DNA of 64,000 nucleotides from Cyclobacteriaceae bacterium (GTDB taxonomy: Bacteria; Bacteroidota; Bacteroidia; Cytophagales; Cyclobacteriaceae), in NCBI GenBank assembly GCA_028284125.1, contig JANQSI010000013.1, positions 124,001 through 188,000 of the forward strand. The letters are read 5' to 3'. Positions 4,349 through 18,816 of this stretch are shown piece after piece. Each line of letters starts with the position of its first letter. Positions within the stretch are counted from its first letter, which is position 1. The position numbers and the translations under genes were made by a program. The notes below the pieces were generated by a model. That model was not told where the DNA came from, made no database searches, and worked only from the letters and a program-made list of their open reading frames with translations.

Positions 4349-4945
4349 ATGGCTTTTGAATTACCCGATTTACCATATGCATACGATGCGCTTGCGCCTC
4401 ATATTGATGCACAGACCATGGAAATACATCATGGGAAACATCACAATGCATATGTTACAAACCTGAACAACGCCGCTGGCGGTCCTATTGCTGAAAAAAG
4501 TATTGATGACGTTTGCCGACATCATTCAGACATCCCAGCGATTCGAAATAATGGTGGTGGACACTACAATCACTCTTTATTCTGGACAATCATGAGCCCA
4601 GATGGTGGTGGTGAGCCTTCAGGTGCTTTGGCGGATGCCATTAACTCTTCATTCGGTTCGTTCGACAAATTCAAAGAAGCATTTAGCAAAGCTGCTGCGA
4701 CAAGATTTGGAAGTGGCTGGGCTTGGCTATGTAAAAAAGCGGATGGAACACTGGATGTATGTTCTTCTGCTAACCAAGACAATCCATTGATGCCTGGTGT
4801 AGGATCTGGTGGAACACCAATTCTGGCACTTGATGTTTGGGAACACGCTTACTACCTGAACTATCAGAACAGACGTCCGGATTACATTAATGCATTCTTT
4901 AATGTGATCAATTGGGACGAGGTGGCTCGAAGATTCGATGCTTAG
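4349..4945 (+). CDS. Superoxide dismutase (Fe/Mn family)
   Basis: The 198-residue protein has the family metal ligands in sequence: the HHGKHH helix (about residues 26-31), [10 protein letters not shown] (about 70-79), and [18 protein letters not shown] (about 159-176). SOD converts superoxide to hydrogen peroxide and oxygen. There is no signal peptide, so it is cytoplasmic. Length is normal. Iron or manganese specificity cannot be decided by eye; Bacteroidota enzymes are often cambialistic. It is monocistronic, directly upstream of the his leader region. Confidence 0.96.
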
Positions 4946-4975
4946 TTTGAAATTAAAAATTGCATACTATCTTCG
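4946..4975 (+). promoter_or_regulatory. Putative Bacteroidota-type promoter of the his operon
   Basis: TTTG at 4946-4949 is followed after 18 nt by TATCTTCG at 4968-4975, close to the Bacteroidota sigma consensus (TTTG at -33, TAnnTTTG at -7). This would place the transcription start near 4980, only a few bases before the leader peptide ATG at 4988. The -33 box overlaps the last bases of sod. Confidence 0.5.
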
Positions 4976-4987
4976 CATTGAAATAAA

Positions 4988-5056
4988 ATGAAAACAAAAA
5001 GACTACATCATCACTTACATCATTACAACTTCTCTCTAGAAGAGGTAGGAAGATGA
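4988..5056 (+). CDS. hisL: Histidine operon leader peptide
   Basis: This 22-codon ORF starts MKTKRL, runs HHHLHHY and stops with TGA at 5054. Five of seven consecutive codons are His (CAT CAT CAC then CAT CAT), as expected of a his attenuator leader peptide whose translation senses charged tRNA-His. It lies in the 245-nt gap between sod and hisG, follows a promoter-like sequence and is followed by a terminator hairpin at 5084-5111. A small stem (CTTCT 5029-5033 with AGAAG 5038-5042) overlaps the codons after the His run and may act as a pause structure. Confidence 0.85.
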   Translation: MKTKRLHHHLHHYNFSLEEVGR

Positions 5057-5062
5057 TGCTGT

Positions 5063-5078
5063 AGTTAAGAATATAACT
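5063..5078 (+). promoter_or_regulatory. Small hairpin between his leader and terminator
   Basis: AGTTA at 5063-5067 pairs with TAACT at 5074-5078 around a six-base loop. It lies between the leader stop codon and the terminator stem and could be part of the alternative fold of the attenuator. No strong antiterminator pairing with the terminator's 5' arm was found by eye. Confidence 0.35.
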
Positions 5079-5083
5079 GAAAG

Positions 5084-5111
5084 GCCCGTCGGATTACCGT
5101 CGGGCTTTTTT
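5084..5111 (+). terminator. Intrinsic terminator of the his attenuator
   Basis: GCCCG/CGGGC plus CGG/CCG arms, separated by one T-T mismatch and closed by an ATTA loop (5084-5105), are followed by a run of T from 5106 to 5111. It sits 27 nt after the leader stop codon and about 80 nt before hisG. This is the classic position for conditional termination. Confidence 0.8.
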
Positions 5112-5190
5112 GTTGCCATTCACAGCAAATTGTTGAGAAAATGATAAGGACTAAAATGATTACGTACCAAACGAAAAAAGAACTGTTCCA

Positions 5191-6051
5191 ATGACGGATC
5201 AAATACTAAAAATAGCCATTCAAAAATCCGGGAGACTTAATGAGAAAAGTCTCGAACTTCTAAAGGAATGCGGAATAAAGATTAACAACGGTGGAAAACT
5301 GATGTCTTCTGCATCTAACTTTCCACTTGAAGTTTTCTACCTCCGTGACGATGATATTCCACAATATGTGGCTGAAGGAGTTGCCGACATTGGGATTCTT
5401 GGAGAAAACGAAGTGCTGGAGAAAGATCAGGAAGTTGAAATCCTAAATCGATTGGGTTTCTCAAAATGCCGACTATCTCTTGCGATTAGAAGGGAGGAAA
5501 ACTATTCTGATGTGAATTGGTTCTCAGGTAAGAAAATCGCAACCTCTTATCCTACTATTCTAAAAGATTTCCTGGAAGAAAATTCAATTGAAGCAGAAAT
5601 TGAGACCATTAGTGGAAGCGTTGAGATTGCACCAGGAATTGGTTTGGCAGACGGAATTTTTGACATAGTGAGCACCGGGAGCACTTTATTGGCTAATGGG
5701 CTGAAGGAAGTAGAGGTGGTTATGAAAAGTGAAGCCGTGTTGATTAACAATCCAAAACTCACTCTTGAGAAAAAGGACCTGTTGGGCAAACTGCTTTTCC
5801 GAATTCAGGCCGCCAAAAGTGCCAAGCAGAACAAATACATCCTTTTGAATGCACCAAATGAAAACCTAGATGCCATCATTGACCTACTTCCAGGGATGAG
5901 GAGTCCAACAGTTTTGCCACTCGCAGAACAAGGATGGTCTAGTCTTCACAGTGTAATTAGTGAGGACGATTTCTGGGAAGTAATTGATCAGTTGAAAGAA
6001 AAAGGCGCTGAAGGAATTCTCGTGTGTCCAATAGAGAAAATGATTGTTTAG
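5191..6051 (+). CDS. hisG: ATP phosphoribosyltransferase, long form
   Basis: This is the first step of histidine synthesis: ATP plus PRPP gives phosphoribosyl-ATP. The 286-residue length is that of the long form, with a C-terminal ACT-like regulatory domain (about residues 215-286) that binds histidine for feedback inhibition. It therefore does not need HisZ. Visible motifs are the N-terminal IAIQKSGRLNEKS, the GVADIGILGENE segment, and the PRPP-binding DIVSTGSTLLANGL (about residues 156-169). It is the first structural gene after the attenuator, 24 nt upstream of hisD. Confidence 0.97.
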   Translation: MTDQILKIAIQKSGRLNEKSLELLKECGIKINNGGKLMSSASNFPLEVFYLRDDDIPQYVAEGVADIGILGENEVLEKDQEVEILNRLGFSKCRLSLAIRREENYSDVNWFSGKKIATSYPTILKDFLEENSIEAEIETISGSVEIAPGIGLADGIFDIVSTGSTLLANGLKEVEVVMKSEAVLINNPKLTLEKKDLLGKLLFRIQAAKSAKQNKYILLNAPNENLDAIIDLLPGMRSPTVLPLAEQGWSSLHSVISEDDFWEVIDQLKEKGAEGILVCPIEKMIV

Positions 6052-6075: not shown

Positions 6076-7356
6076 ATGAAAAACATTCAATACCCGGACA
6101 ATTTGAAATGGGAAGAATTGTGCAAAAGGCCCACCATTGATTCTAAGAAATTGGAGGAGAATGTTGCTCAAATTATGACTGAAGTGAAAAGTAAAGGCGA
6201 TGAAGCACTTCTCAGGTTCAATCAAGAATTCGATGGAGTCAGCATCGAAACAATAAAAGTGGATCTTCAAGACCAAGAGTTCGATATTGATCCTGAGCTT
6301 GCAGAAGCCATTAAAACAGCAGAAGCCAACATATCTACTTTTCATCGCTCTCAACAAACTGAAATAAAAAAAGTCGAAACAAGTCCCGGCGTAAGCTGTT
6401 GGCGAAAGAGTGTCCCGATTGAAAAAGTTGGACTTTACATTCCCGGAGGAACTGCCCCACTCTTCTCCACTCTCTTAATGCTGGCTATTCCTGCAAAACT
6501 TGCAAGTTCCAATGAAATTGTGGTGTGTACGCCTCCTCAAAAAACGGGTGCACTCAACAGCATCATTGGCTGGACATGCAAGCTGCTGGGCATCAATGAA
6601 GTTTTCCTAACTGGAGGCGCTCAAGCGATTGCAGCGATGACTTATGGTACAGAGTCCGTTCCAAAAGTTGATAAGATATTTGGTCCGGGCAACCAATTCG
6701 TGACAGAAGCGAAACAACAGGCCCAAAAAGCTGGTGTTGCCATTGATATGCCGGCCGGACCGAGTGAAGTTTTGATCATCGCTGACGATCAAGCAAATCC
6801 AGAATTTGTTGCAGCAGATCTTCTAAGCCAGGCAGAACACGGCCAAGACAGTCAGGTAGTACTGGTTTCAGATTCTCAAGAAATAATTTCGGCAACAGAA
6901 AAGGAATTAGAAAAACAACTTGAAAGACTTCCTAGAAAAGAAATTGCATCCCTATCACTTGAAAACAGTAAATCAATTCTGACCAGAAATTTAGAAGAAG
7001 CGGTTTCCTTCAGCAACAATTATGCTCCCGAACATTTGATTATTGCAACTGCAAATAGCGAAAAGCTTTCAGAAATCGTCACCAACGCTGGAAGTGTTTT
7101 TCTTGGTAATTGGAGCTGTGAAAGTGCCGGAGATTATGCCAGCGGCACCAATCACACACTACCTACAAACGGCTATGCCAGGTCGTATAGTGGCGTTTCT
7201 CTTGATAGTTTCATAAAGAATATCACCTTTCAAAAATTAACAGAGGCTGGGGTAAAAGCACTTGGTCCGGCTATTGAAAAAATGGCAGAAGCCGAAGGCT
7301 TAGAAGCGCACAAGAATGCAGTTTCTGTTAGACTTAAAAATTTGAGCAATGTTTGA
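6076..7356 (+). CDS. hisD: Histidinol dehydrogenase
   Basis: The 426-residue enzyme oxidises L-histidinol to L-histidine in two NAD-dependent steps, the last stage of the pathway. Family features are present: [30 protein letters not shown], the Zn-ligand region [12 protein letters not shown], the catalytic NYAPEHL (Glu/His), and [17 protein letters not shown]. Length is normal. Its last eight bases overlap the start of the hisC-hisB fusion (7349), which suggests coupled translation. Confidence 0.97.
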
Positions 7357-8956
7357 CTTAGAAAAACTAATCCGCCCAAACATCAAGGGGCTCAAACCTT
7401 ATCAGAGTGCAAGAGATGAATTTAGTGGTCTCGCTGAGGTCTCATTGGATGCGAATGAAAACCCTTTTGGTTTTGGTTTGAACCGTTATCCGGATGCTAA
7501 TTTAACTGACCTAAAAAAGGAATTCGCAGCTTTCAGGAATGTTGATTCAAATCGTTTGATTTTCGGAAATGGAAGTGATGAATTAATTGATTTATTGATT
7601 CGGGCATTCTGTGAGCCAGGTCAGGATCGTATTCTGATTTTTCCTCCGACTTTTGGCATGTATGAAGTTTGTGGAAATATCAACAACGTTGAAGTTCAGA
7701 AACAAAATCTCAATGAAGATTTTCAAATAGATATTGAATCTGTTAAACCAAAGTTGAATGATTCCAATCTGAAACTTATCTTCGTTTGCTCCCCAAATAA
7801 TCCCACAGGTAACAGTATCCATAGAGAGACAATTCTAGAAATCACTAAAAACTTTGACGGAATTGTAGTTGTCGATGAGGCCTATTCCGATTTTACTGAT
7901 AGCAGTTTGGTAAGTGAACAAATACCCAACCTCATTGTAATTCAAACATTTAGTAAGGCAATCGGATTAGCTGGAATACGCCTTGGGGTTGGGATTGGAA
8001 ACACTGAAGTTATCGACGTTTTAAACAAGGTTAAACCACCTTATAACGTCAATGCTTTAACTCAGCAAAAAGCCATTGAAGCACTCAAAAGACCAGACGA
8101 AATAAAAAAGCAGGTTAGTATTCTAGTCGAAGAACGCAAAAGAATGTCGCAAACTCTTCCCACGATTGAAGGAATTAGAAGAGTTTACTCATCAGATACC
8201 AATTTCTTACTCGTCGAGTTTGATGATGCCCAAGAAGTTTATAACACACTTGCTGAAAATGGAATTGTAGTCCGAGATCGATCTAAGCAAGTAGCAAACA
8301 CATTGAGAATAACAGTAGGAACTCCGGAAGAAAATGACCGATTGCTGTCCGTTTTAAGAGAAGAAAACTATTCAACATCTGGAAGAACCGGAGAATGTTT
8401 GCGAAGCACATCTGAAACACAAATTCTAGTGAAAATTAATCTTGATGATCCGTCAAATAGTCATTCAAATACAGGCATTCCGTTCTTTGATCACATGTTG
8501 GATCAAATAGCCAGGCATGGTGCAATTGGCTTAAACATTCAAACAAAAGGTGATCTTCAAATTGATCCACACCACTCTATTGAAGACACAGCATTGGCCT
8601 TGGGGACTGCATTTGATAATGCATTAGGAGAAAGAAAGGGAATTGAACGATATGGCTTTCTTCTCCCGATGGATGATAGTCTAACTCAGGTCGCGATAGA
8701 TTTTGGTGGAAGACCTTGGTTGGAATGGGAGGCAGATTTTAAGGCAACTCATGTTGGAGACATGCCAACAGAAATGGTTTCTCATTTCTTTAAATCATTT
8801 TCAGATACTGCCAGATGCAACTTGAATATTAAGGCTGAAGGTGATAACGATCACCACAAAATTGAATCAATTTTCAAAGCGTTTGCCAGGGCATTGAAAA
8901 TGGCCGTTCGAAAAGACGAAAGTGGTGTTTTACCATCAACAAAGGGAGTTTTATGA
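7349..8956 (+). CDS. hisCB: HisC-HisB fusion: histidinol-phosphate aminotransferase + imidazoleglycerol-phosphate dehydratase
   Basis: This 535-residue ORF joins two enzymes. Residues 1 to about 342 are a class I/II PLP aminotransferase of the HisC type: [13 protein letters not shown] at about 151, VVDEAYSDF at about 175, and the PLP lysine in [14 protein letters not shown] (Lys203). From about 350 it is an IGP dehydratase: [53 protein letters not shown], and the terminal PSTKGVL. The junction is about ten residues with no spacer domain. The N-terminal HAD histidinol-phosphatase domain that Bacteroidota HisB normally carries is absent. The protein would catalyse pathway steps 6 and 7, and histidinol-phosphate phosphatase must be encoded elsewhere. 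Confidence 0.93.
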
Positions 8957-9050
8957 TTTTGATTTTAAGATTATTTCGAGTGAAGATTGTTTCGAATAGA
9001 TTCTATAGATCGAATAAATCAACAAATCAAACAATCGAATTAATTGGGCA
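8957..9050. repeat. AT-rich GATT/AATC foldback spacer, copy 2
   Basis: This is the spacer between hisCB and hisH. The left half carries GATTTTAAGATTATTTCGA and GATTGTTTCGAATAGATTC; the right half carries GATCGAATAAATC, AAATCAAACAATCGAATT. The halves are imperfect reverse complements, so the his transcript can fold here. There is no gene in it. Confidence 0.5.
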
Positions 9051-9629
9051 ATGGTAGCAGTCGTAAAATACAATGCAGGAAACATTCGGTCAGTGGTAAA
9101 TGCACTTGATCGATTAGGTGTTGAATCTACATTAACCGATAACCCAACTGAACTGAAGTCCGCTGACAAGGTCATATTTCCAGGTGTCGGAGAAGCGAGT
9201 TCAGCTATGAAATACTTGGAAGAAAGAGGTCTCGATGAAGTTCTTAAATCGTTGACTCAGCCTTTTCTTGGGATTTGCCTAGGCATGCAGCTCATGTGTG
9301 AATATTCGTCAGAGAACGACACCAAATGCCTGGGAATTTTTGATGAGACGGTACGTCGATTTCCTAAAGAAGGGATTGTGCCGCACATGGGATGGAACAA
9401 TTTTATTTCTCACAGCGGAGTGTTGTTTGAAGGAATCTCAGCTCTTGACAGCATGTACTTTGTGCACAGCTTTTTCGTAGAAGTTGGACCTGACTCAATC
9501 GCCACCACTGATTATATTTTGCCTTTCTCCTCTGGTTTGCAGAAGGAAAACTACTACGGAGTTCAGTTTCACCCTGAGAAATCGGCGGATGTTGGGCAAC
9601 AACTATTAAAGAATTTTTTGGATTTGTAA
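9051..9629 (+). CDS. hisH: Imidazole glycerol phosphate synthase, glutaminase subunit
   Basis: This is a 192-residue class I glutamine amidotransferase. The nucleophile elbow GICLGMQLMCE (Cys about residue 81) and the HPEKS His-Glu pair near residue 175 complete the catalytic triad, and VVKYNAGNIRSV is the typical N-terminus. It supplies ammonia to HisF for ring closure to IGP and AICAR. Length is normal. It is separated from hisCB by an AT-rich foldback spacer and from hisA by a REP-like palindrome. Confidence 0.96.
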   Translation: MVAVVKYNAGNIRSVVNALDRLGVESTLTDNPTELKSADKVIFPGVGEASSAMKYLEERGLDEVLKSLTQPFLGICLGMQLMCEYSSENDTKCLGIFDETVRRFPKEGIVPHMGWNNFISHSGVLFEGISALDSMYFVHSFFVEVGPDSIATTDYILPFSSGLQKENYYGVQFHPEKSADVGQQLLKNFLDL

Positions 9630-9644
9630 ACAGTAAATAGGAAG

Positions 9645-9665
9645 ATCCTGAAACAAGTTCAGGAT
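9645..9665. repeat. REP-like palindrome between hisH and hisA
   Basis: ATCCTGAA (9645-9652) and TTCAGGAT (9658-9665) form a perfect 8-bp stem around ACAAG, followed by GACT. The GAACTTG-TTC core, read on the other strand, is shared with the hairpin at 57760-57778. It resembles a widespread intergenic repeat with the ATCCTGAA...TTCAGGAT layout. Confidence 0.6.
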
Positions 9666-9680
9666 GACTAGGAGATAAAA

Positions 9681-10400
9681 ATGAGAATAATACCAGCCAT
9701 AGATATTATTGAAGGAAAATGTGTACGTCTATCGCAAGGCGATTACGAAACCAAAAAAATATATAATGAAGACCCTCTTGAAGTTGCAAAATCCTTTGAA
9801 GGTGCTGGACTTAGTTATTTACATCTCGTTGATCTGGATGGAGCAAAGGCAAGTCATATAGTCAATTGGAAAGTGCTGGAAAAAATCGCAACAAGAACAG
9901 AATTAACTATAGATTTTGGTGGTGGCTTAAAGACCAATGAAGACTTGCGGATTGCTTTTGAAAGTGGAGCCAATCAAATCACAGGAGGCAGTATTGCAGT
10001 AAAAGATCCAGATACTTTTACTCAATGGATTAAGGCGTACGGTTCTGATAAAATAATTCTTGGTGCCGATGCAAAGAATGAAAAAATAGCTGTATCAGGG
10101 TGGCAAGAAGGAACTGAGCAAGAAGTGCTTGAATTCATTAGTGAATATGTCAACAAGGAAATCAAGTACGTAATTTCAACAGACATTGATAAAGATGGAA
10201 TGTTAGAAGGACCGTCTTTTGATTTGTATAAGAAGGTTTTGAAAGAATTGCCAGACATTAAACTTATTGCCAGCGGAGGAATTTCCTCGATTGACGATTT
10301 GATTCAACTAAAGGAGTTGGGACTTGAAGGAACAATCGTAGGAAAAGCGATTTATGAAGGATTGATTCGATTGGAAGATTTAAGGGATTTGTTCGATTGA
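9681..10400 (+). CDS. hisA: ProFAR isomerase
   Basis: This 239-residue TIM barrel isomerises ProFAR to PRFAR (pathway step 4). Visible motifs are [20 protein letters not shown] with the first catalytic Asp at residue 8, [12 protein letters not shown] (phosphate loop), the second Asp in [14 protein letters not shown] (about residue 170), and [12 protein letters not shown] with [11 protein letters not shown] at the C-terminal phosphate site. Sequence and length are ordinary. It starts 51 nt after hisH. Confidence 0.96.
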
Positions 10401-10548
10401 GGGATTGTTTCGATTAAGAGATTAAAATGGATTGATGGATTTTAGATTTATGAATAATTACGATAGTTTTCCAAATAGGTCAGTACTGATTAGCTCGATT
10501 CACTCAAAATCGAAAAAATCTACAATCTACAATCCTAAAATCTCAACC
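10401..10548. repeat. AT-rich GATT/AATC foldback spacer, copy 3
   Basis: The left side has GGGATTGTTTCGATTAAGAG and GGATTTTAGATTT; the right side has AAAATCGAAAAAATC and CAATCCTAAAATCTCAA, roughly the reverse complement. It lies between hisA and the four-helix-bundle gene. An ATG-initiated frame runs through it from 10432 into that gene, but its translation is low-complexity and is judged non-coding. Confidence 0.5.
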
Positions 10549-10941
10549 ATGAATGCTGACCAATTAAAAGATAGAACAAAAAGCTTTGCGGTTAGTGTAG
10601 CAAGGTTCTGTCAGCAAATACATGCAAATCCATTATTAAAACCATACGCTAATCAATTAATAAGAGCATCGAGTTCTGTTGGCGCAAATTATCGAGCAGC
10701 ATGTAGAGCAAAATCAAGTGCAGATTTTATTTATAAGCTGAAAATTGTCGAAGAAGAATGTGATGAATGCATGTTCTTCCTCGAGCTAATTCAAGAGTTG
10801 AAACCTGAAAGTCAGAGTGTGATTGAATCTTCTTGGAAAGAGGCGAACGAAATACTCTCAATAATTGTGGCTTCAATAGGAACTGCAAGAAGAAATCAAA
10901 AAATCCCAAAATCCCAAATCAAAAAATCGGGTAATGCTTAA
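10549..10941 (+). CDS. Four-helix-bundle protein (23S rRNA IVS-type) inside the his operon
   Basis: About 130 residues from the ATG at 10549; a longer frame from 10432 reads through repeat-like spacer and is less likely. Motifs of the family are visible: [37 protein letters not shown], and [22 protein letters not shown]. Members fold as four-helix bundles, were first noted in intervening sequences of 23S rRNA, and are scattered widely in Bacteroidota with unknown function. The C-terminal tail after TARRNQK is low-complexity ([11 protein letters not shown]), encoded by AATCCC/AATC repeats. The last eight bases overlap hisF. Nothing ties it to histidine synthesis; it looks like a passenger gene. 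Confidence 0.8.
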
Positions 10942-11689
10942 GAAACGTATCATACCATGTCTTGATATTAAAGACGGACAAACAGTAAAAGGAGTCAACT
11001 TTGTTGACATACGTTCCGCTGGCGATCCAATTGAATTGGCTAAAAGATATGTCCAAGAGGGAGCAGATGAATTGGTTTTTCTAGACATAACCGCAACCAT
11101 TGAAGGAAGAAAAACATTTGCTGAGCTAGTGAAAAAAATCTCCAAAGAGATCAATATTCCATTTACCGTCGGCGGAGGGATAAGTTCTGTGGAGGACGCC
11201 AGAAAATTGCTCGAGGCTGGTGCCGACAAAATCAGTGTTAACTCGGCTGCAGTAAAGAATCCGACACTTGTTGAAGAATTGTCAACCGAATTTGGCAATC
11301 AATTTCTTGTTGTTGCGATGGATGCCGGATTAATTGACGATGAATGGAAAGTATTTGTCAAAGGTGGAAGAGAAGCTACAGAATTGGATGTTCTTAAATG
11401 GGCTAAGAAAGTGGAGGATTTGGGAGCAGGCGAAATTTTATTGACCTCTATGCAACACGATGGAACTAAAGGTGGGTTTGCAATTGAACTTACCAATCAA
11501 CTGACGGACCTGTTGACTATTCCAGTGATAGCATCTGGTGGCGCTGGTTCAAAAGAACATTTCTCAGATGTATTTCAGCAAACCAAAGCGACTGGTGCAT
11601 TAGCAGCCAGTGTTTTTCATTTTGGAGAAATTCCTATTCCTGAATTGAAAGAGTATTTGAGAAGTAAAAATTTAGATATTAGACTATAA
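10934..11689 (+). CDS. hisF: Imidazole glycerol phosphate synthase, cyclase subunit
   Basis: This 251-residue TIM barrel starts [20 protein letters not shown], with catalytic Asp11, and contains [29 protein letters not shown] (second catalytic Asp about 130), [12 protein letters not shown] and [12 protein letters not shown]. It uses HisH-derived ammonia to make IGP and AICAR. It is normal in length. Its start lies inside the end of the four-helix-bundle gene, so the insertion has kept the reading of the operon intact. Confidence 0.97.
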
Positions 11690-11743
11690 GAAAGTTGAAG
11701 ATTAATCGATTGTAAGAATTATTCGAATAAATCCAATAATCAA
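11690..11743. repeat. AT-rich GATT/AATC foldback spacer, copy 4
   Basis: This short spacer between hisF and hisIE reads GAAGATTAATCGATTGTAAG on the left and CGAATAAATCCAATAATCAA on the right, again GATT then AATC. It is shorter than the other copies. Confidence 0.4.
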
Positions 11744-12319
11744 ATGAATCCAAAATCAGACCTAATTCCAGCTGTAATCCAACACTCATTGACCAGCCAA
11801 GTTTTGATGCTCGGTTATATGAATGAAGAATCTTTGGCTAAAACAAAAGAAGAAGGTAAAGTCACTTTTTACAGCAGATCAAAGCAACGACTTTGGACAA
11901 AGGGAGAAACTTCAGGAAATTTCCTAAATGTTGTTTCCATTCAAGAAGATTGTGATCAAGATACCTATTTAATAAAAGTTCTTCCTGAAGGAGAAACTTG
12001 TCATACAGGCGCATACACTTGTTTCGGAGAAAAAGAACCTCAAGGCTTTTTGTATGAGCTACAGCAGATTATACAAGAACGAAAGAACAATCCAACCGCA
12101 AATTCATACACCTCAGAACTTTTTCAGAAAGGCACCAAAAAGATCGCTCAAAAAGTAGGTGAAGAAGCTACCGAGGTAATCCTGGAAGCCATGGACAATA
12201 ACAAAGAACTACTAACTGAAGAAGCATCTGATCTGATGTATCATTTATTGGTTCTGCTTGCCGATCTGGGATTGGAATTACAAGATGTAGACAGAAAGTT
12301 GATGGAGCGTCATAAATAA
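11744..12319 (+). CDS. hisIE: Bifunctional phosphoribosyl-AMP cyclohydrolase / phosphoribosyl-ATP pyrophosphatase
   Basis: The 191-residue fusion performs steps 2 and 3 of the pathway. The N-terminal HisI part (about 1-105) shows MLGYMNEESL, VTFYSRSKQRLWTKGETSGN and the metal Cys residues in EDCDQD and ETCHTGAYTCF. The C-terminal HisE part (about 106-191) shows KKIAQKVGEEATEVILEAM and EEASDLMYHLLVLL, the MazG-like Mg-binding helices. This fusion is usual in Bacteroidota. It is the last gene of the operon. Confidence 0.97.
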   Translation: MNPKSDLIPAVIQHSLTSQVLMLGYMNEESLAKTKEEGKVTFYSRSKQRLWTKGETSGNFLNVVSIQEDCDQDTYLIKVLPEGETCHTGAYTCFGEKEPQGFLYELQQIIQERKNNPTANSYTSELFQKGTKKIAQKVGEEATEVILEAMDNNKELLTEEASDLMYHLLVLLADLGLELQDVDRKLMERHK

Positions 12320-18030: not shown

Positions 18031-18816
18031 ATGAAAGCTATTAAATCAATATTCATATTGCTGGCAATAGTATTTGTCAGCGCCTGTTCAGATAGTGATG
18101 ATCCACAACTAGGATTTGAAACGGATCTCACAGAAATTAACTCAATCACCGAAAATGGGTTGAAGGTCACACTTTTTGCTTCGGAAGATTTCTTTGTTGG
18201 ATACAATAACATCACCGCAAAGATTGAAGACGAAAATGGTAATCTGTTGAGTGGCGACATTGTAGTGACTCCAATGATGGACATGATGACCATGTCACAC
18301 TCAAGTCCGATAGAGTTTCCCGATGGAACAACATTTCAAGATGGTTCCTTCAATTTCAGCCCTGTATTTGTCATGCCTTCAGGAGAGATGGGGAGTTGGA
18401 GTATTAAGTTCTCTATCAACGAAACTGAAGTGACCGTACCAGTAGAAGTTTCAGCTCCAGAAAAAGCACGACTTGTTTCCTTTATGAGTATGATGGACGA
18501 AACTACCAAGTATTTTGTCGCATACATTGATCCGAAAGATCCTCAAGTTGGTCAAAACGATCTGGAAATTGCTGTTTTCAAAAAGCAAAGTATGATGGAA
18601 TGGCCAGCAGTGACAGGAATGGAGTTTGAACTTGAGCCTTGGATGGTGAGCATGGATCATGGATCACCTAACAATGTTGCGCCAGCACACACAGAAAATG
18701 GTCATTATAAAGGAACTGTCAATTTTACTATGACTGGTGACTGGCAGATTCGTCTGACCATGAAGGACAATGGTAATACCTGCGGTACACCCTACTTCGA
18801 CATTTATTTCCAATAG
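18031..18816 (+). CDS. Met/His-rich lipoprotein with FixH/YtkA-like domains
   Basis: The 261-residue protein has a lipoprotein signal with lipobox VSAC at residues 19-22. Two beta-sandwich segments resemble the YtkA/FixH type (KVTLFASEDFFVGYNNITAKIEDENG at about 45-70, and a final GHYKGTVNFTMTGDWQIRLTM). Met-rich stretches such as PMMDMMTMSH, MPSGEMGSW and SMDHGSP are suited to binding Cu(I). The gene sits 18 nt upstream of the OprC-like receptor. A role as copper acceptor or delivery protein on the periplasmic face of the outer membrane is inferred, not shown. Confidence 0.8.
   Translation: MKAIKSIFILLAIVFVSACSDSDDPQLGFETDLTEINSITENGLKVTLFASEDFFVGYNNITAKIEDENGNLLSGDIVVTPMMDMMTMSHSSPIEFPDGTTFQDGSFNFSPVFVMPSGEMGSWSIKFSINETEVTVPVEVSAPEKARLVSFMSMMDETTKYFVAYIDPKDPQVGQNDLEIAVFKKQSMMEWPAVTGMEFELEPWMVSMDHGSPNNVAPAHTENGHYKGTVNFTMTGDWQIRLTMKDNGNTCGTPYFDIYFQ

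Follow-up and report, generated by a model that had tools for sequence, protein, structure and literature searches.

The window analysed here, a 64-kb stretch of contig JANQSI010000013.1 from a Cyclobacteriaceae bacterium, carries a histidine operon downstream of sod (4349-4945, stop codon 4943-4945). Pfam confirms both sod and hisG, and the his operon gene names were assigned from Pfam domains together with gene order. Between sod and hisG lies a 22-codon open reading frame (ORF), which runs from an ATG at 4988-4990 to a TGA at 5054-5056, encodes MKTKRLHHHLHHYNFSLEEVGR and ends 134 nt from the hisG ATG. A first-pass annotation had placed this leader ORF at 4988-5056, and re-reading returned the same coordinates. 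Its count of five His in seven codons is right about the run, HHHLHH, and low on the density, which is five His in six codons; the stem-loop and T-run that it had put at 5084-5111 are both present, with the hairpin itself starting earlier, at 5079-5110, and the T-run at 5106-5111. Its coordinates are off by no more than a few bases. A six-frame search of the 64-kb window for at least five His in seven codons found one further site only, which lies near 18294 of the minus strand and is adjacent to stop codons. The features of the locus are the following:

4946-4949, plus strand: -33 promoter element TTTG, directly 3′ of the sod stop codon (from sequence).
4968-4975, plus strand: -7 promoter element TATCTTCG, agreeing with five of the six fixed positions of TAnnTTTG.
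4980-4981, plus strand: predicted transcription start, 4-5 nt 3′ of the -7 box (from the spacing given in PMC6847099).
4988-5056, plus strand: leader peptide ORF MKTKRLHHHLHHYNFSLEEVGR (from sequence and codon identity in the genus).
5001-5015, plus strand: region 1, the predicted His-codon arm of the 1:2 stem (from folding).
5052-5067, plus strand: region 2, GATGATGCTGTAGTTA, overlapping the leader stop codon, with region 1 or region 3 as predicted partner (from folding).
5074-5090, plus strand: region 3, TAACTG...GGC.CGTC, the predicted 3′ side of the antiterminator, overlapping the terminator 5′ arm (from folding).
5079-5111, plus strand: intrinsic terminator of -19.5 kcal/mol, with 5′ arm 5079-5092, loop 5093-5096, 3′ arm 5097-5110 and T-run 5106-5111.
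5191-6051, plus strand: hisG, the first operon gene (PF01634 and PF08029).
6076-12319, plus strand: the rest of the his operon, namely hisD, a fused hisC-hisB (IGPD), hisH, hisA, a PF05635 gene, hisF and hisIE (from Pfam domains).

We compared the sod-hisG gap across the genus, in which 10 genomes were searched, eight had a hisG match and seven had readable upstream DNA (L001, L002 and L172-L176); in genus genome G103 the upstream DNA amounts to 18 nt. Ekhidna lutea belongs to this genus, because L174 and L035 share identical upstream DNA. The order sod, leader, hisG (with the end of sod read by eye) and a terminator 3′ of the leader were found in all seven members, as was a leader with at least three His in eight codons; six of the seven have at least five. 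The start codon and the second, fourth and fifth His codons are identical in every member. All five His are present in six, and HHHxHH likewise, where x is Leu, Ala or Val and His is kept as CAT or CAC; the L176 leader, MTNHQLHHKIFQRRR, has three His only. Upstream of the biosynthetic operon there is, in short, a conserved leader ORF with several codons for the amino acid that the operon makes. The His codons and the terminator, on whose conservation in relatives the first-pass annotation had staked its reading, are kept in the genus and beyond it.

For the family and for a wider set of loci, we counted ORFs that begin with ATG, span 6-60 codons and lie within the final 300 nt before hisG. Loci L005, L031 and L079 of these two sets were left out for short upstream DNA. 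Across the family, 98 genomes were searched, 93 had a hisG match and 90 loci were read (G029, G056 and G069 were left out). Leaders with at least four His in eight codons occurred in 69/89 family loci and with at least three in 82/89, counts that ignore kinship, compared with 0 and 2 on the reverse strand and 0-1 and 0-7 in five shuffles. The wider search took the best 80 of 314 loci, of which 78 were counted; nearly all are labelled Bacteroidota (other labels are Calditrichia for L063 and Roseburia for L064), L031-L035 are close kin of the window and many loci are near-duplicates of each other. Here, again ignoring kinship, the counts were 61/78 and 66/78 at the same two thresholds, compared with 0 and 2 on the reverse strand and 0-2 and 0-5 in five shuffles. 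A leader with at least four His in eight codons was absent from 20/89 family loci and from 17/78 of the wider loci (best 80 of 314). In Phocaeicola vulgatus ATCC 8482 (L096), the leader before hisG reads MVRTATHHHHFPNE. Leader peptides of distant loci are alike in little but their His codons, which is the expected sign of selection on codons. As a separate observation, tandem modules of a His leader and a terminator stand before hisG in L047, L052, L053, L074, L075, L081, L082 and L108 (Carboxylicivirga and others); the tandem of L052 is weak, its first module having three His and a poor terminator.

These counts bear on a simpler account of the locus, in which the hairpin does no more than terminate sod and the His-rich ORF arose by chance. 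Since sod stops at 4945 and no second hairpin followed by a T-run is seen in the gap, the 5079-5111 hairpin is probably where sod transcripts end. However, His ORFs turn up repeatedly before hisG, both inside and outside the family, while the reverse strand yields 0 and shuffles 0-2, and a terminator follows the His leader in many distant loci (65/78 of the wider loci, from the best 80 of 314). A terminator serving sod and nothing else is already disfavoured by these observations, and we consider it highly improbable.

The leader is preceded by a candidate promoter of its own. The TTTG at 4946-4949 and TATCTTCG at 4968-4975 are 18 nt apart and resemble the Bacteroidota consensus TTTG/TANNTTTG given in PMC6847099, with one mismatch in the -7 box; the promoter-like sequence noted in the gap at first pass is thereby matched to a known type. 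Bacteroidota are described as having their own promoters and making little use of Shine-Dalgarno sequences (PMC6847099, PMC3155529). A scan for sigma-70-type promoters listed none at the leader, and the promoter and terminator scans returned counts near shuffle means, with no hit at the leader and without detecting the 5079-5110 hairpin. Because PMC6847099 gives 4-5 nt between the -7 box and the transcription start for probable promoters, a start at 4980-4981 and a 5′ untranslated region (UTR) of 7-8 nt are predicted. That the ATG would lie a few bases after the predicted start had been raised at first pass as a point to be solved; judged by box positions, this near-leaderless spacing recurs through the genus. 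In L001, L002 and L032-L035, a -7-type box ends 9-12 nt 5′ of the leader ATG (three of these boxes are exact and three have one mismatch), and a weaker box in the seventh member, L176 (4/6, by eye), ends 6 nt 5′ of it. With box ends 6-12 nt from the ATG, 5′ UTRs of 1-8 nt are predicted for the genus. Such starts are unusual, given that 87% of predicted Flavobacterium johnsoniae transcripts with a probable promoter have leaders longer than 10 nt (PMC6847099) and that 5.5% of 890 analysed Flavobacterium psychrophilum mRNAs are leaderless (PMC9723704), yet they recur in the genus. The near-leaderless rule is not general. Exact TAnnTTTG boxes were found in 33/85 leaders with a terminator and 38/51 without one, compared with 3.6 and 1.9 in shuffles, and in those 33 the box ends 6-47 nt 5′ of the ATG, with a median of 21 nt, so terminator leaders outside the genus mostly have an ordinary short 5′ UTR. 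We propose, from the box positions, that ribosomes may use the predicted short start.

The RNA between this start and the end of the terminator, which lies between the leader and the first gene at 5079-5111, is highly structured: 4983-5111 folds at -40.8 kcal/mol, compared with -20.6 ± 3.45 kcal/mol in 200 shuffles, none of which was as good (z = -5.86). Structure of this kind would also fit a riboswitch, a T-box or a protein-binding leader that controls the operon while the peptide is irrelevant. However, no Rfam family reaches its cut-off here; the T-box family gave no match, and at the gathering score Rfam matches nothing in the window but a tRNA. The structure also uses the His codons themselves, which are nearly all that distant peptides share, and we find such a leader scarcely credible. 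In the minimum-energy fold the His codons pair with region 2 in the 1:2 stem, and without a ribosome the terminator is left free, with 1.8 of its arm bases held upstream compared with 4.8 in shuffles. The first-pass annotation had seen no strong antiterminator by eye. One is found on folding with the leader masked, a check that it had itself suggested: with a ribosome on the His codons and the RNA ending before the terminator 3′ arm, 5052-5067 is predicted to pair with 5074-5090. The strength of this helix is moderate, and it recurs in the genus: in each of the other six members a similar 2:3 helix either gives the best fold or comes within about 0.1 kcal/mol of it. By eye, the paired letters differ between members: L175 has GTAT/ATAC for GTTA/TAAC, and in place of GATG/CGTC L174 has TAGG/CCTG and L176 has GTTA/TGAC. 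Covariation is slight, from seven sequences read by eye, and MAFFT fails to align the inner antiterminator helix.

We next consider the predicted switch between these helices. With a stalled ribosome, 5.6-7.5 of the 14 terminator-arm bases of the window are held by upstream RNA, compared with 1.8 with the ribosome at the stop codon, a value that is low partly because little RNA remains, and 1.8 with no ribosome. We defined a switch score as the difference, stalled minus free state, in how far upstream RNA pairs with the terminator arm, and compared it with 100 shuffles of the stretch from ribosome to terminator. The window scored 5.7, compared with 0.3 in shuffles, and 2 of the 100 shuffles reached it. 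The scores of the other genus members were reached by 2 (L002), 0 (L172), 2 (L173), 8 (L174), 0 (L175) and 1 (L176) of 100 shuffles each, and that of Escherichia coli hisL, the positive control, by 0 of 100. By prediction, then, the antiterminator is mutually exclusive with the terminator and favoured on stalling. Among 83 non-redundant leaders, drawn from 106 with a terminator, the switch z was positive in 69 (mean 1.61), and 38 scores were reached by 5 or fewer of 100 shuffles. Energies of region 2 with the terminator arm were better for true pairs than for swaps between species, with 0 of 5000 permutations as good, and the swap test of region 1 with region 2 gave the same result (0 of 5000). 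This test works for the leader set and not for the window itself, where 91% of foreign partners were equally good (with the inner helix 5062-5079 left out). The stalled pairing of the window, taken alone, does not rise above shuffles with the first His in the A site (z = 0.15, 26/60), and with the middle His it was reached by 21 of 100 (z = 0.92). In the model, what marks out the window is a moderate 2:3 helix combined with an efficient 1:2 helix.

Even with a stalled ribosome, the minimum-energy fold keeps the terminator when all of it has been transcribed, and E. coli hisL behaves alike. Since the complete terminator wins in energy despite the stalled ribosome, the switch would have to be kinetic. 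Full-length folding energies were dropped as a test, as antitermination shows only before the 3′ arm is made, in E. coli hisL as well; L173 was uninformative in full-length folding, which ended at the wrong T-run. In our crude model of E. coli hisL with the ribosome at the stop codon, the antiterminator is intact (8.9/15 arm bases, compared with 0.1 without a ribosome), so termination in that state needs ribosome release. A comparison of stalled and at-stop ribosomes across the 83 leaders was rejected as evidence, because masking to the stop codon removes most upstream RNA by construction.

We conclude that the element in the window very probably attenuates transcription of the his operon in the classical, ribosome-mediated way. 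The first-pass annotation had put this reading forward, and conservation, the predicted 2:3 antiterminator and the switch score now support it. It builds on observed sequence elements, their conservation and mutually exclusive predicted helices, to which the model adds the point where transcription starts, a translated leader, a stalling ribosome and altered read-through. RNA polymerase would start about 7-8 nt 5′ of the leader ATG, and a ribosome would load very close to the 5′ end of the transcript. When charged tRNA-His is scarce, the ribosome would stall on the HHHLHH codons and cover region 1; region 2 (5052-5067) could then pair with region 3 (5074-5090), a pairing that would hold the terminator 5′ arm and let polymerase continue into hisG. 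When histidine is plentiful, the ribosome would reach the TGA at 5054-5056 and cover region 2, and after its release, or without a ribosome, region 2 would pair with the His-codon arm. With region 2 covered or engaged in the 1:2 stem, the terminator at 5079-5111 would form and end transcription, including that of sod read-through RNAs.

The kind of element, amino-acid operon attenuation, is already known; Rfam has a Bacteroidota trp leader, and a structured hisG element has been described in Flavobacteriaceae. The window resembles the enteric his attenuator (RF00514 His_leader; E. coli hisL) in its short leader peptide with a His run, its 1:2, 2:3 and 3:4 helices, its intrinsic terminator before hisG and the behaviour of its switch score. 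It differs from E. coli hisL in having HHHLHH instead of seven consecutive His, a Bacteroidota-type promoter with a predicted 5′ UTR of 7-8 nt and a weaker antiterminator (7.4/14 arm bases compared with 9.0/15). RF00514 (cut-off 49 bits) gave no match in the window up to an E value of 5; the E. coli control scored 131.6 bits. RF01692 Bacteroid-trp, the Bacteroidete tryptophan peptide leader RNA, belongs to the same phylum as the window, appears in a table of PMC2864571 and scored 28.4 bits over 4976-5090, below its 49-bit cut-off; as it is by name a tryptophan leader and the window a histidine one, we set them apart by that name and not by the codons or genes of the family. RF00506 Thr_leader scored 31.1 bits (E = 0.00031) over 4999-5114, below its 55-bit cut-off, which we read as a shared leader-plus-terminator layout.

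In F. psychrophilum, a structured hisG 5′ element without an Rfam match is described as conserved in other Flavobacteriaceae, and its authors see strong clues to attenuation by leader peptides upstream of amino-acid operons (PMC9723704, 2021). As in the window, it is the 5′ region of hisG that is structured, the family here being Flavobacteriaceae instead; main-text passages of that paper give no His-codon peptide, antiterminator or mechanism for the element. Bacteroides thetaiotaomicron, likewise of the Bacteroidota, has small ORFs in 5′ UTRs that are reminiscent of attenuation leaders and in this resemble that of the window (PMC7366714); BT_4401 is the named example, and the word 'histidine' is absent from the main text. 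A paper on the his genes of this superphylum uses 'attenuation' once, in its introduction (PMC8305728). Among the titles and abstract openings searched, with most subscription journals outside that search, none was on a Bacteroidota his leader.

The family also contains His leaders of a second form. A leader with at least three His in eight codons and its stop within 200 nt is present in 85 family loci. In 57 of them our detector, which asks for a hairpin of -8 kcal/mol or better beside a T run, finds no T-run terminator; this class depends on the detector, whose terminator call in L167 is probably spurious. The last His lies three codons or fewer from the stop in 51/56 terminator-less leaders, compared with 2/19 in the terminator class. 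Between the stop codon and hisG, C exceeds G in 54/56 terminator-less leaders and in 13/19 of the terminator class, where it was measured after the terminator; stretches shorter than 30 nt are left out of this comparison. TTCCTC...GAGG spans the leader stop codon in 24 of the 57 terminator-less loci, 20 of which also have ATATCG within 45 nt. An exact TAnnTTTG box is present in 38 of 51 such leaders, and in 25 of the 38 its end is no more than 10 nt from the ATG, so the terminator-less leader mRNA is probably near-leaderless. RNAalifold, run on 17 terminator-less leaders, returned only the stop-codon hairpin and one short helix, with no informative covariation.

Two observations on this form stand apart. 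Loci L003, L004, L006-L009, L018, L023-L026, L030, L113, L116, L119 and others share a His-rich stretch followed by HHSS-stop, a TTCCTC-stop-GAGGAA hairpin on the stop codon and a conserved ATATCGCCC. A TAnnTTGY box, similar to the promoter motif that PMC9723704 calls SM5 in F. psychrophilum, lies 3-6 nt 5′ of the hisG ATG in 14/86 family loci, all of the terminator-less class (L003, L004, L006-L009, L018, L019, L023-L025, L030, L116 and L119). This box would make hisG leaderless from a second promoter.

The terminator-less form is perhaps a Rho-dependent attenuator, in which a stalled ribosome would hide a Rho-binding stretch. The idea rests on the His codons at the stop, the C-rich and G-poor RNA, the box near the ATG and the analogy with tnaC. 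These terminator-less leaders are more novel than the attenuator of the window. Their number also lends weight to another account of the window, in which the leader senses histidine by a different route, either translational coupling or reinitiation, or termination by Rho within the leader, and the hairpin is constitutive. With 57/85 family leader loci lacking a T-run terminator by the detector, the family probably has a route that needs no intrinsic terminator, and reinitiation at leader genes has been proposed for Bacteroidetes, with stop-to-start distances peaking at 11-14 bp (PMC4833913). In the window, however, the leader stop is 134 nt from the hisG ATG with the terminator in between, and the switch between the 1:2 and 2:3 helices exceeds shuffles. 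We judge a different route to be unlikely here and keep ribosome-mediated attenuation as the reading of the window.

A joint reading of both forms is possible, and we put it forward tentatively. His-codon leader control of his operons would be common across Bacteroidota; in the near-leaderless RNAs of the window's genus and the family's terminator-less leaders, boarding at the 5′ end would set the timing of the ribosome relative to RNA polymerase. Two forms would exist, one with a terminator and antiterminator, and one, at most sampled family loci, with His codons at the stop, no intrinsic terminator and C-rich, G-poor RNA, perhaps Rho-dependent.

Further leaders occur in the same genome. MMNNKTYWWWISRILC precedes a chorismate-binding gene taken as trpE, MNITLSFYFSFYFFPNQERGWL precedes pheA (PF00800) and MKNILSNILVIINVIIIYDMS precedes a PF00920 gene taken as ilvD (L179, L184 and L185 are the three leader loci). 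They are rich in Trp, in Phe and Tyr, and in Ile, Val and Leu, respectively, and each is followed, by eye, by a GC hairpin and a T-run; the pheA leader passes the Rfam Phe_leader cut-off (57.3 compared with 55 bits). No such leader ORF was found at thrA of this genome, nor, by eye, a leader at two further chorismate-binding genes or a second homoserine dehydrogenase gene. Given the trpE-, pheA- and ilvD-type leaders, leader-peptide attenuation is probably a general device of the organism. The locus provides a sequence-level model of amino-acid-controlled attenuation in Bacteroidota. Because classical attenuation needs a ribosome close behind the polymerase, attenuators conserved in this phylum would imply that transcription and translation are coupled at these leaders, beginning on RNAs with almost no 5′ UTR. 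For annotation, a small gene and a regulatory RNA are missing before many hisG genes, that of P. vulgatus ATCC 8482 being an example.

The operon genes show two further peculiarities. At 7349-8956 of the window, a HisC aminotransferase is fused to the HisB dehydratase domain (IGPD), and the HisB phosphatase domain is absent. The fusion is full length in 9/10 genus genomes, and the match in the tenth ends at a contig edge. Among 41 family genomes, only the two of the window's genus gave a single full-length match; in most others hisC and IGPD are separate matches, and G008, G018, G027, G030 and G039 have open frames of 730-748 codons spanning hisC and IGPD parts, that of G039 with an internal stop. 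Our literature search found no paper pairing the term hisCB with the name of the dehydratase. Between hisA and hisF, at 10432-10941 of the window, lies a gene for a 23S rRNA intervening-sequence protein (PF05635), which overlaps the start of hisF.
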